In this document: in pieces, positions 25,511 through 39,277 of the stretch
Position numbering within the stretch: position 1 is the first letter of the stretch
Layout of the letters: each line of letters begins with the position of its first letter
Made by a program: the position numbers and the translations under genes
Assembly (NCBI GenBank): GCA_002101205.1
Contig: LWTM01000077.1
Location: 1-64,000 of the forward strand
Length of the DNA stretch: 64,000 nt
Direction of reading: 5' to 3'
From: Cycloclasticus sp. symbiont of Poecilosclerida sp. N
Lineage (GTDB): Bacteria; Pseudomonadota; Gammaproteobacteria; Methylococcales; Cycloclasticaceae
Notes under the pieces: generated by a model
What the model was told of the DNA's origin: nothing
Databases searched by the model: none
The model's input: only the letters and a program-made list of their open reading frames with translations

Positions 25511-25810
25511 TCAATCAATCGGTAAAATTTCATCCAAACCACTAAGCCGCACGATATCTAGCATTTGTTTCGGGATCTGTTGAAAACTAATCGTTTGCCC
25601 TGATTCTTTTGCCAACACCATCCACTCAATAAGTAAAGCCAAGCCAGCGCTGTCTGTCTTTTTAACACCTGACAAGTCAAAGACTAACGGTTCTTGTCCA
25701 GAAAAAAAGCATTGTGAGTCCCGCAGTAATCCAATTACTAAACCAAACGCTAGCGTGCCTGACACGGCAATTTTGCCAGAGCCCGTTTTAGTTAGTTGTG
25801 CAGCATCCAT
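25511..25810 (-). CDS. mlaB: STAS-domain protein MlaB
   Basis: FDLSGVKKTDSAGLALLIEWMV STAS motif; mla operon context. Confidence 0.85.
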   Translation of the reverse strand: MDAAQLTKTGSGKIAVSGTLAFGLVIGLLRDSQCFFSGQEPLVFDLSGVKKTDSAGLALLIEWMVLAKESGQTISFQQIPKQMLDIVRLSGLDEILPID

Positions 25811-25833
25811 AATTAACCCAGTTATTAAACTTA

Positions 25834-26310
25834 CTATTCAGACTCGTTATTGAACAAGAACTGACCAATAATTTGTTCAAGAACTAATGCCGATTGCGTT
25901 AATTCAAGCTCACTGCCCTCCATTAAAACTTCTTCTTCGCCACCAGGCTCTAAACCCACGTACTGCTCCCCCAATAAGCCTGCCGTTAAAATACTCGCAT
26001 TCGTATCGAATGGTAACTTGTCGTATTGCGCTTCAATATTCATTGTCACTATCGCCTCAAAAGAATCAGGGTCAAGTTTAATGCTCGTTATCCTACCAAC
26101 AGTAACGCCAGCCATGGCAACCGGCGCTCGTGCTTTCAAGCTACCAACATTCTCAAATCTCGCTGTAACGTCGTACCCCTCATCTCCATTAGCACTGCTT
26201 AAGTTACTCACTTCCATAGATAAGAAAAACATAGCAACGAAGCCAATCGCCACAAAGAAACCCACTAAAATCTCAATCGATCTAGATATGTGCATATTAG
26301 ATATCTCCAA
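25834..26310 (-). CDS. mlaD: MlaD, MCE-domain lipid-transport protein
   Basis: SIEILVGFFVAIGFVAMFFLSMEVSNL; ARFENVGSLKARAPVAMAGVTVGRI. Confidence 0.95.
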   Translation of the reverse strand: MEISNMHISRSIEILVGFFVAIGFVAMFFLSMEVSNLSSANGDEGYDVTARFENVGSLKARAPVAMAGVTVGRITSIKLDPDSFEAIVTMNIEAQYDKLPFDTNASILTAGLLGEQYVGLEPGGEEEVLMEGSELELTQSALVLEQIIGQFLFNNESE

Positions 26311-27079
26311 ACATCAATGCGGTTAAAATAAAGTCTACCAATAAAATTACAAACGCGGAATGAACCACTGTACGTGTTGTTGCGCGACTAACACCTTCAG
26401 ACGTTGGAATGGCATCATAACCTTCAAACACCGCTATCCAAGTCACCAGCCAGCCAAATATAACGCTTTTAATAAGCCCATTGATGATGTCTTGATTAAA
26501 ATCAATTTTGGCTTGCATTTGCGACCAATAACCACCCTCATCAATACCTAATAAGCCAACACCAATGAAGTAGCCACCTAAAATACCTATTGCGCTAAAC
26601 ACAGTGGCCAATAGGGGCATTGAAATCAAACCTGCTAAAAAGCGCGGTGTTACTATCCGAGCAATAGGGTCAACCGCCATCATTTCCATACCAGACAATT
26701 GCTCCGTCGTTTTCATTAAACCAATTTCTGCAGTTAATGCCGAACCCGCGCGACCTGCAAATAGCAAAGCTGATACAACCGGGCCAAGCTCTCTAACCAG
26801 AGACGCAGCAACCATAACCCCCAACATCCCTTCCGCACCAAAATCCGACAGCGTATAAAAACCCTGTAGCGCGATAACCATGCCGACAAAGAGACCTGAA
26901 ATCAAAATAAGAGAAAAACTTAATACACCCACCGAGTAGATTTGCGCTATTAATAAACGCGGCCTAACAATCACACCAGGAATACTCAGCAAGATATTAA
27001 CGAAAAAGAGCGAACTTCGACCTAAGCGCTCAAAAATGCCCAGTGAGGTTACGCCTAATTGCTGAAAGTAATTCAGCAT
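26297..27079 (-). CDS. mlaE: MlaE permease (start set at internal MLNYFQQLG)
   Basis: ALLFAGRAGSALTAEIGLMKTTEQLSGMEMMAVDP. Confidence 0.95.
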   Translation of the reverse strand: MLNYFQQLGVTSLGIFERLGRSSLFFVNILLSIPGVIVRPRLLIAQIYSVGVLSFSLILISGLFVGMVIALQGFYTLSDFGAEGMLGVMVAASLVRELGPVVSALLFAGRAGSALTAEIGLMKTTEQLSGMEMMAVDPIARIVTPRFLAGLISMPLLATVFSAIGILGGYFIGVGLLGIDEGGYWSQMQAKIDFNQDIINGLIKSVIFGWLVTWIAVFEGYDAIPTSEGVSRATTRTVVHSAFVILLVDFILTALMFGDI

Positions 27080-27099
27080 AACAAGTTTACCTTCATTAT

Positions 27100-27915
27100 T
27101 TAAGCCTCCAAGCCCAATAAATCTTTTGCGTATCCCTTCGCAGCGTAGTGGAACGGCACCGGCCCATCTGCCATGCCCTGCATAAATTGTTGTGACCACT
27201 GCGAGTCAGAGTCAGCCAATTGTTTAGGTGAGCCGTGCTCAACGACCTTACCGTTTGAAACCAAGTAAACATAATCTGCAATCGCACAGGTTTCTTGCAC
27301 ATCATGTGAAACGATAATGCTCGACAACCCCAGCACATCATTCAATAACCGAATCAACCGCACTAAAACACCCATAGAAATGGGGTCTTGCCCAGTAAAT
27401 GGCTCATCGTACATAATCATCATCGGGTCAAGCGCAATAGCACGCGCCAAAGCAACTCGCCTCGCCATACCTCCTGACAACTCTGCAGGCATCAAATCTC
27501 TTGCACCACGTAAGCCAACTGCTTGTAATTTCATTAACACTAAATGGCGAATCATCGACTCGGGCAACTTTGTATGCTCACGCAACGGAAATGCAACATT
27601 ACCAAATACACTAATATCCGTTAATAACGCGCCACTTTGGAACAACATCCCCATCTTCTTACGCAATTGATAAAGCTGCTTATGTCGCAGCCTGTGAACG
27701 TTCTCCCCATCCACCTCAATAGTGCCTGATGAAGGCCTTAACTGACCGCCAATCAACTTCAGAAGCGTCGTTTTCCCCGTGCCACTGGGACCCATAATCG
27801 CCGTCACTTTCCCGCGTTGAATATCCATATTCACGCCATCAAAAATAAGCTTTGATCCACGAGAAAAATGAACATTTTTAATTTTAATTAATGGGTCGTG
27901 CTCACTCAAATCCAC
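27100..27915 (-). CDS. mlaF: MlaF ABC-transporter ATP-binding protein
   Basis: GPSGTGKTTLLKLIGG, LSGGMARRVALARAIALDPMMIMYDEPFTGQDP. Confidence 0.95.
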   Translation of the reverse strand: MDLSEHDPLIKIKNVHFSRGSKLIFDGVNMDIQRGKVTAIMGPSGTGKTTLLKLIGGQLRPSSGTIEVDGENVHRLRHKQLYQLRKKMGMLFQSGALLTDISVFGNVAFPLREHTKLPESMIRHLVLMKLQAVGLRGARDLMPAELSGGMARRVALARAIALDPMMIMYDEPFTGQDPISMGVLVRLIRLLNDVLGLSSIIVSHDVQETCAIADYVYLVSNGKVVEHGSPKQLADSDSQWSQQFMQGMADGPVPFHYAAKGYAKDLLGLEA

Positions 27916-28200
27916 TTACCTATTTTTGTACTTAAAAATATAACGTTTAATGCGGCTATAAATCTCACCAACTTTGTTCTTAAAATTGTTCAGTAAAAAA
28001 CACTGCAAACTATAATTAATATCAAGATTTGGTATTGTCCTTACCTTATCAATTCACGTCAATCCGAACTTCCATTATTTACACCTTCAAATATAGAAAT
28101 AAGAACTCGTTAGCTTTCACAACGAATGCCTTTTGTGACAACAAATCTATGCGACAATAGTAGCCATTATTAGTAAAAGCAGTTCTTATACGCCTATGTT

Positions 28201-29013
28201 GAGACCTCAGCACGTGCACTGGCGGTGTTAGTGCTGACAGTATAACCCAACAAATCCGCATTAATTTTGTTATAATGCATCATGCAAAAATCATTCTCAA
28301 CACAGTCCAACCTCTTCTTTTCAACCGCTGACTTAGACCACCCTATTCTTCATAGTCTTGATGACACAGAAGCCTTGTTGGAATGGTCTGAAATAGAAAC
28401 ATTACTCACCTCAATCTATGATTCTAACACAGGTCGTCCCTGTTACCCTTTACTGACGCTATTTCGAAGCTTGCTGCTTGGCGTATGGTATCAACTATCC
28501 GATGTGCAGTTAGCCCAGTGTTTATACAGGGACTTATTGTTCCGTAAATTCTGCCGTTTGGAACTTGGTGGTGACGTTCCAGAAGCATCGACTATAGGAC
28601 GGTTTAGAACGCAGTTGGTTGAACACGGTCTATGGGGCCGATTGCTAGGTGATGAGCGACCCTTTGCCACGTATAAGAGACATTATGGGCTTGCCAGAAC
28701 TCGATTTATGGGGCTGGGCAAAAATACAACCGTTTATGGTTTAGCTGCTATGGCTGCGAACTTTCGCAAAGGGGCTGAATTTTTAACGCTCTACGGTATA
28801 CCAGAGCCAAGTTATGCGGGGTAACTGTGTCAAAGATCAGGGAAAAGCACTGAAAACAGGAATGAAATCGATTTTTTAGGCATTAAATGACCTAAAAATA
28901 GCGTAATTGACGGAAAATAGGAGAAGTCTCATGAAGGTGGATAAAGTTGTTGGTTACACTGTCAGCGCTAGCACCTACGGCACGCGTGCTGTAAGTACAC
29001 GTACTGAGGTCTC
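28201..29013 (+). mobile_element. 813-bp IS5-like element, internally deleted, with ATGTT target duplication (28196-28200 / 29014-29018)
   Basis: Left end gagacctcagcacgtg..., right end ...cgtactgaggtctc; extended ~50-bp imperfect TIRs; 5-bp direct repeats. Confidence 0.88.
28282..28824 (+). pseudogene. IS5-family transposase with in-frame deletion of the catalytic middle
   Basis: N-terminus MQKSFSTQSNLFFSTADLDHPILHSLDD...EASTIGRFRTQLVEHGLWGRLLG fused directly to DERPFATYKRHYGLARTRFMGLGKNTTVYGLAAMAANFRKG; only 180 aa. Confidence 0.88.
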
Positions 29014-29023
29014 ATGTTGTTAA
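28931..29023 (+). CDS. Putative 30-aa small ORF spanning the IS right end (MKVDKVVGYTVSASTYGTRAVSTRTEVSCC)
   Basis: RBS-like aggaga 9-14 nt upstream; homologous ORF at 39156-39281; overlaps the yrbG start. Confidence 0.35.
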   Translation: MKVDKVVGYTVSASTYGTRAVSTRTEVSCC

Positions 29024-29991
29024 ACATTGCCGGTCTATTGACTGGTTTATTATTTTTAGTTTTCTGCGCTGATGATTTTGTAAAAGGCGCGTCAGCAATT
29101 GCTCGGAACTTTGGCATTTCACCGCTCATTATTGGCTTAACCGTTGTCGGTCTAGGCACATCAGCTCCTGAAATGTTGGTCGCAGGTATGGCATCTATTC
29201 AAGGTAACACAGGGCTTGCAACAGGTAATGCTGTTGGTTCAAATATTGCGAACATTGGTCTTGTTTTAGGCACAACAGCCCTCATTGCACCTGTTTTAAT
29301 TAAATCCTCTTTGCTCAAACGAGAACTTCCCATCTTGCTAGCTATATCAATTATGAGCTATTTATTGATTATTGATGGTGACTTATCTCGCTTTGATGGC
29401 TTGGTTTTGTTATCCGCCTTAGCTGCTTTTATGTACTGGTTAATACGTAGCGCGAAGCAAAGCAAATCACAGCAAGCGGACCCGCTTGGCACTGAATTCA
29501 GCAAAGAAATACCAAGTAACTTATCCAACTCGAAAGCTTTTTTCTTTTTCCTACGCGGCTTAATAGGCCTTATCGTTAGTTCTAAACTGTTGGTTTGGGC
29601 CGCCGTTAATATTGCCGTAGTTTTTGGCGTCAGCGACTTAGTTATTGGCTTAACCATTGTAGCCATTGGCACAAGCTTACCTGAACTTGCCGCGTCCATT
29701 ACAAGCGTTCTTAAAAAAGAGTCTGACCTTGCAGTGGGCAATATTATTGGTTCAAACGCATTTAATTTATTAGCTGTCCTTTGTTTACCCGGGCTTATTC
29801 GCCCAGGCGCAGTTGATAGTCAGCTTGTTTTTAGAGACTTCCCTATCATGCTAGGCTTCACCTTGTTACTGTTCGCTTTTTCATACCGTTTTAACGGTGA
29901 AGCAAAAATCAGCCGTTTAAAAGGCACTGTCCTTACAATATTTTTCATCTCTTACCTCGGCAAGGTATACTTGGAAACCCTTGGAGTTTAG
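29014..29991 (+). CDS. yrbG: YrbG-like calcium/sodium antiporter
   Basis: Two Na/Ca-exchanger repeats: GLGTSAPEMLV...GNAVGSNIANIGLVLG and AIGTSLPELAASI...GNIIGSNAFNLLAVL. Confidence 0.94.
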   Translation: MLLNIAGLLTGLLFLVFCADDFVKGASAIARNFGISPLIIGLTVVGLGTSAPEMLVAGMASIQGNTGLATGNAVGSNIANIGLVLGTTALIAPVLIKSSLLKRELPILLAISIMSYLLIIDGDLSRFDGLVLLSALAAFMYWLIRSAKQSKSQQADPLGTEFSKEIPSNLSNSKAFFFFLRGLIGLIVSSKLLVWAAVNIAVVFGVSDLVIGLTIVAIGTSLPELAASITSVLKKESDLAVGNIIGSNAFNLLAVLCLPGLIRPGAVDSQLVFRDFPIMLGFTLLLFAFSYRFNGEAKISRLKGTVLTIFFISYLGKVYLETLGV

Positions 29992-39104: not shown

Positions 39105-39277
39105 AATCTAAGACCTAAAAAACAGCGTAATTGACGAAAAAATAGGGGAGGTCTAATGAAGGTGGATAAAGTTGTTGGTTACACTGTCAGCGCTAGCACC
39201 GCCGGCACGCGTGCTGCCGGCGCCGGCGGTGTAAGTGCAAGCGTAGCGGGTGCTGTAAGTACACAGACTAAGGTCTC
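39105..39277 (+). mobile_element. Right-end fragment of the same IS family as 28201-29013
   Basis: gacctaaaaa.agcgtaattgacg...ataggggaggtcta atgaaggtggataaagttgttggttacactgtcagcgctagcacc... ending aaggtctc; near-identical to 28895-29013. Confidence 0.8.

Follow-up and report, generated by a model that had tools for sequence, protein, structure and literature searches.

An IS5-family insertion sequence has inserted at the yrbG start codon in the 64,000-nucleotide stretch of Cycloclasticus DNA analysed here (the window), where it has duplicated the target ATGTT and thereby preserved the ATG. The reading that we favour, with a probability of about 0.72, is that of a start-codon insertion in which the upstream promoter is kept and the initiation region of yrbG is now supplied by the element. 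Its probable net effect would be that the insertion is tolerated and changes how YrbG is translated, with transcription from kdsD to lptB being little or not changed. This makes a clean case, confirmed by a relative, of an insertion sequence tolerated on the start codon of a gene that heads a run leading to the lpt lipopolysaccharide-export genes, and suggests that a gene can be preserved by a duplication containing its ATG together with a retained upstream promoter and ribosome signals made by the element. The features that define the insertion are:

28196-28200, plus strand: target duplication ATGTT, left copy, at the original position of the yrbG start codon (sequence; empty site in G007)
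28201-29013, plus strand: IS5-family element, 813 bp, non-autonomous (ends and inverted repeats, copies in the genome, relation to the G012 element)
28201-28220, plus strand: left terminal inverted repeat (inverted-repeat search)
28994-29013, plus strand: right terminal inverted repeat (inverted-repeat search)
28282-28824, plus strand: truncated transposase ORF, 180 codons (DUF772 and partial DDE_Tnp_1_6 matches)
28647-28652, plus strand: junction of an in-frame internal deletion, with an imperfect 6-bp repeat, AGGTGA/AGGTGG (comparison with an intact transposase)
29014-29018, plus strand: target duplication ATGTT, right copy, which provides the yrbG ATG (sequence; empty site in G007)
29014-29991, plus strand: yrbG, calcium/sodium antiporter family, intact, 325 codons (ORF list, congener alignment, Pfam)

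The element begins with GAGACCTCAG, finishes with CTGAGGTCTC and has ATGTT on both flanks, a 5-bp match that by itself would be expected by chance in about 1 of 1024 cases. Alignment of upstream regions revealed the empty site in another Cycloclasticus genome (G007, YrbG identity 81%), which has a single ATGTT and reads ...tattagcctATGTTGTTAAATATTGCC, to be compared with ...cttatacgcctATGTTGTTAAACATTGCC for the joined flanks of the window. This empty site rules out a chance origin of the flanking repeats, and both lines of evidence together demonstrate a genuine insertion with a 5-bp duplication at the yrbG start. A previous sequence-only reading had proposed an IS5-like element with gagacctcag/ctgaggtctc ends at 28201-29013, flanked by an ATGTT target duplication holding the yrbG ATG; its coordinates are exact, the inverted repeats and the duplication were confirmed, and the element-free allele that it suggested looking for in related strains is that of G007, with one ATGTT. 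No exact flanking duplication was found at the other paired copies inspected in the genome to which the window belongs, and the duplication length is thus established for the yrbG insertion and not for the family as a whole; many of those copies could have recombined or decayed.

The terminal inverted repeats match at 18 of 20 bp (90% complementary over 21 nt) and are accompanied by an additional subterminal pair of arms (40 nt, 78% complementary). Assignment to the IS5 family is clear by way of an intact relative in G012, a 1205-bp element whose 335-aa transposase scores 228.7 bits against the NCBIfam model NF033581, transpos_IS5_4 (cut-off 140). The truncated ORF of the window scores 89 bits against the same model, below the cut-off, as expected from its internal deletion. 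This deletion removed 155 codons in frame, leaving 180 of 335 and eliminating most of the DDE domain of the transposase, so that the yrbG copy, which has no complete transposase ORF, should be unable to move itself. Among plasmids, the nearest element by sequence is an IS5-family element of Marinomonas algicola (NZ_CP061942.1), ISAba23 of Acinetobacter being more distant. The window copy has in common with these elements the transposase family, terminal repeats starting with GAGACCTCAGC and the general architecture, but differs from them in the loss of the 155 transposase codons, in the 5-bp duplication, seen only here, and in the variable GC-rich stretches gained by both ends in its genome.

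Cycloclasticus includes symbionts of mussels and sponges (PMC12510462). The genome that contains the window comprises 1.92 Mb in 77 contigs (98% complete), congeners at least 93% complete spanning 2.1-2.6 Mb, and it harbors dozens of scattered fragments of the same element (68 matching segments, many of them partial). Compact ends (GAGACCTCAGCATAAC) occur in G012, G016 and Marinomonas, and GC-rich, partly palindromic stretches that differ in length have been added to most of the ends examined in the window's genome. In the yrbG copy these modules, absent from the compact ends of the relatives, occupy 28208-28247 and 28952-28991; modules of very variable length also occur at loci L078, L079, L082, L093 and L095. 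At 39114-39277 of the window they are accompanied only by the right-hand part of the element, and elements of 82 bp and 208 bp that carry them consist of little besides the two ends. The M. algicola plasmid NZ_CP061942.1 also contains a 107-bp element with the same terminal repeats (138832-138938, locus L208), a probable miniature derivative. A second copy with the same deletion junction as the window copy was found on contig C76 of the window's own genome (L082, 1148-1609). A shared recent origin of the two deleted copies was considered and rejected, the C76 copy being no closer to the window copy than others are; recurrent deletion at the short repeat seems as likely as a shared origin.

The gene that received the element appears undamaged. 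The yrbG ORF starts at 29014 and encodes 325 aa with a Pfam Na_Ca_ex match. YrbG has matches in genomes of the genus Cycloclasticus; of the 16 congeners with a match, 13 align with it from its first residue. Downstream, kdsD, kdsC, lptC, lptA and lptB are all intact. The earlier claims that the yrbG coding sequence is preserved and that the element lies between mla and the yrbG-kdsD-kdsC-lptC-lptA-lptB run headed by yrbG, were both borne out. On the divergent side, one putative promoter was recognized:

28034-28062, minus strand: mla promoter-like site, TTGACG / 17 nt / GACAAT (consensus scan; putative activity)

This stretch is conserved in most congeners of the alignment and lies outside the element, untouched. 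Disruption of the mla promoter by the insertion is thereby ruled out, and the element does not come between the candidate site and mla. In the window, mlaC is absent between mlaD and mlaB (25511-27915), as it is in three congeners (loci L061, L063, L064 and L066 were compared). The G007 locus (L061) lacks mlaFEDB, and there the divergent neighbour of yrbG is murA.

Two promoter-like sites read towards yrbG, one upstream of the element and one within it:

28148-28158, plus strand: likely native yrbG -10 region, TATGCGACAAT, of the extended -10 type (congener conservation; putative activity)
28268-28276, plus strand: transposase -10-like site, TGTTATAAT, pointing to yrbG (sequence; putative activity)

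In 13 of 14 congeners, the exception being G016, the extended -10-like motif TGCGAYAAT (28150-28158 in the window) lies 33-81 nt ahead of yrbG, and the 11-mer TATGCGAYAAT is found once in the window against 0.16 occurrences expected. When the element and one ATGTT are omitted, the motif stands 37 nt from the original ATG, compared with 39 nt in G007. It is intact, upstream of the element, oriented to yrbG and at the usual distance from the original start codon, suggesting that the insertion presumably took place in the transcribed 5' leader, downstream of a native promoter that probably has not been lost. The sequence-only reading had held that the native 5' UTR, ribosome-binding site and promoter of yrbG were displaced. 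This stands insofar as the element makes a new leader and ribosome site and has shifted the promoter by about 0.8 kb, but there was no evident native Shine-Dalgarno to lose, and functional loss of the promoter was not retained as the default interpretation because the element has left the conserved -10-like motif, which lies upstream of it, intact.

In the arrangement proposed, the native promoter, the transposase promoter-like site, the truncated transposase ORF, a mini-ORF, yrbG and the genes from kdsD to lptB all follow one another in a single reading direction. A plus-strand terminator-like site was not found inside the element by the terminator scan, the sole plus-strand hit being located within yrbG (29029-29046) and one hit being the level given by shuffled sequence; these terminator and promoter scans are blind to Rho-dependent stops and to unusual promoters. 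Rfam gave no match. Both native and IS-borne transcription of yrbG are possible, and the element may possibly drive the lpt genes by way of the transposase promoter-like site. A stronger version, in which the native promoter has been replaced and yrbG, kdsD and the genes as far as lptB rely on IS-derived transcription, would draw on the orientation of the -10-like site TGTTATAAT at 28268-28276 and on the native motif being now some 850 bp from yrbG. We consider it improbable, since the conserved native motif is intact and faces an element with no plus-strand terminator-like site, and read-through is the simplest expectation. The strict promoter scan did not list the transposase site. Between the end of this site and the transposase ATG lie 5 nt (28268-28284), with similar spacing in the G012 and G016 copies, and a transcript starting from it would be leaderless or nearly so.

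What the insertion appears to have changed is the initiation of yrbG translation, where the relevant signals are now:

28919-28923, plus strand: AGGAG, 7 nt upstream of the mini-ORF ATG, a strong Shine-Dalgarno (duplex energy -7.3 kcal/mol)
28931-29023, plus strand: 30-codon outward-reading mini-ORF through the right end of the element (stop TAA at 29021-29023; 10-nt overlap with the yrbG start)
29006-29010, plus strand: Shine-Dalgarno-like GAGGT in the right terminal repeat, separated by 3 nt from the yrbG ATG (sequence; duplex energy)

No evident Shine-Dalgarno precedes yrbG in most congeners or in the leader inferred for the ancestor. At the junction with the element, GAGGT gives a duplex energy of -6.3 kcal/mol compared with -1.3 kcal/mol for that ancestral leader, although its 3-nt spacing from the ATG is shorter than usual. 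The mini-ORF runs over the yrbG ATG and its stop codon lies 4 nt beyond it, an arrangement in which re-initiation or coupling is plausible: ribosomes leaving the mini-ORF could start again at yrbG and unfold the terminal hairpin. From the left copy of the ATG, an ORF of 11 codons runs to a stop within the element. In the predicted fold of the read-through RNA both IS ends pair around GAGGT (z = -6.0, 20 shuffles), and nothing stands out in the local folding at the yrbG start (z = -1.1). The paired ends may hide GAGGT in transcripts from the native promoter, and transcripts from the IS-borne site would be without the left end.

The same fold provides one argument for a quite different outcome, in which yrbG is poorly expressed or silent, kdsD to lptB have their promoters within yrbG or beyond it, and the element is without consequence for lpt. 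Internal promoters do exist in the lpt region of E. coli, and the IS ends are predicted to be able to cover the yrbG ribosome site in read-through RNA. We consider this outcome improbable as well: yrbG has retained its 325 codons free of stops, although decay would not yet be visible if the insertion were recent, and only 17 nt separate it from kdsD. Altered but continued translation of yrbG under a retained promoter is the preferred reading.

The least probable proposal, that this IS5 lineage carries a conserved outward translation-initiation unit as a selected feature, giving flanking genes a start by in-frame fusion, as for an ORF on contig C48, or by coupling, as at yrbG, is unlikely in view of the non-significant excess of same-direction genes after right ends, of the prompt stops in most G016 copies and of the Marinomonas relative, which has no ATG at that place. 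In its favour, a Shine-Dalgarno, ATG and mini-ORF occur at the right ends of copies in three Cycloclasticus genomes, and in the window's genome 11 of 16 copies keep the mini-ORF in frame as far as the end (binomial 0.004 at a one-third chance, for copies that are related and of which several have lengths 15 bp apart), a bias that may come from these 15-bp steps and shared descent. The nearest downstream ORF has the same direction as the right end in 22 of 34 cases against 12, which is not significant, and a role of the mini-ORF as a general gene starter was rejected on this count. On contig C48 of the window's genome (L098, 353-1549) it is fused in frame to an ORF of 399 codons with a weak alpha-2,8-polysialyltransferase match, of which it forms the sole likely early start; no homologue that could show the ancestral start of this ORF was found among the 60 relatives searched. 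The mini-ORF start sequence had no match in IMG/VR, and the titles and abstract openings returned by a literature search held nothing directly on point about IS-derived ribosome sites or coupling. Should translation indeed begin at the mini-ORF, insertion sequences, already known for outward promoters, would be seen to provide translation starts as well.

The insertion at yrbG is a further case of a known kind of relation between insertion sequences and their neighbours, real, minor and ordinary, with a translational twist. Insertions that change the expression of a neighbouring gene are well known, ISAba1 and ISEcp1 in front of resistance genes being examples. As in those cases, an IS end now forms the 5' region of a gene that points away from the element; at yrbG, however, the insertion seems to have left the native promoter in place and to have altered mainly the translation signals. 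A second parallel is offered by the fold-back inhibition of IS10 and IS50, in which transcripts entering from outside pair the ends or the end repeat and hide the ribosome site of the transposase, and internal transcripts do not. Transcripts that enter the yrbG element from outside likewise carry pairable ends able to hide a ribosome site, but the hidden site in IS10 and IS50 belongs to the transposase, whereas in the present case the host gene yrbG would have its own site covered, as the predicted fold suggests.
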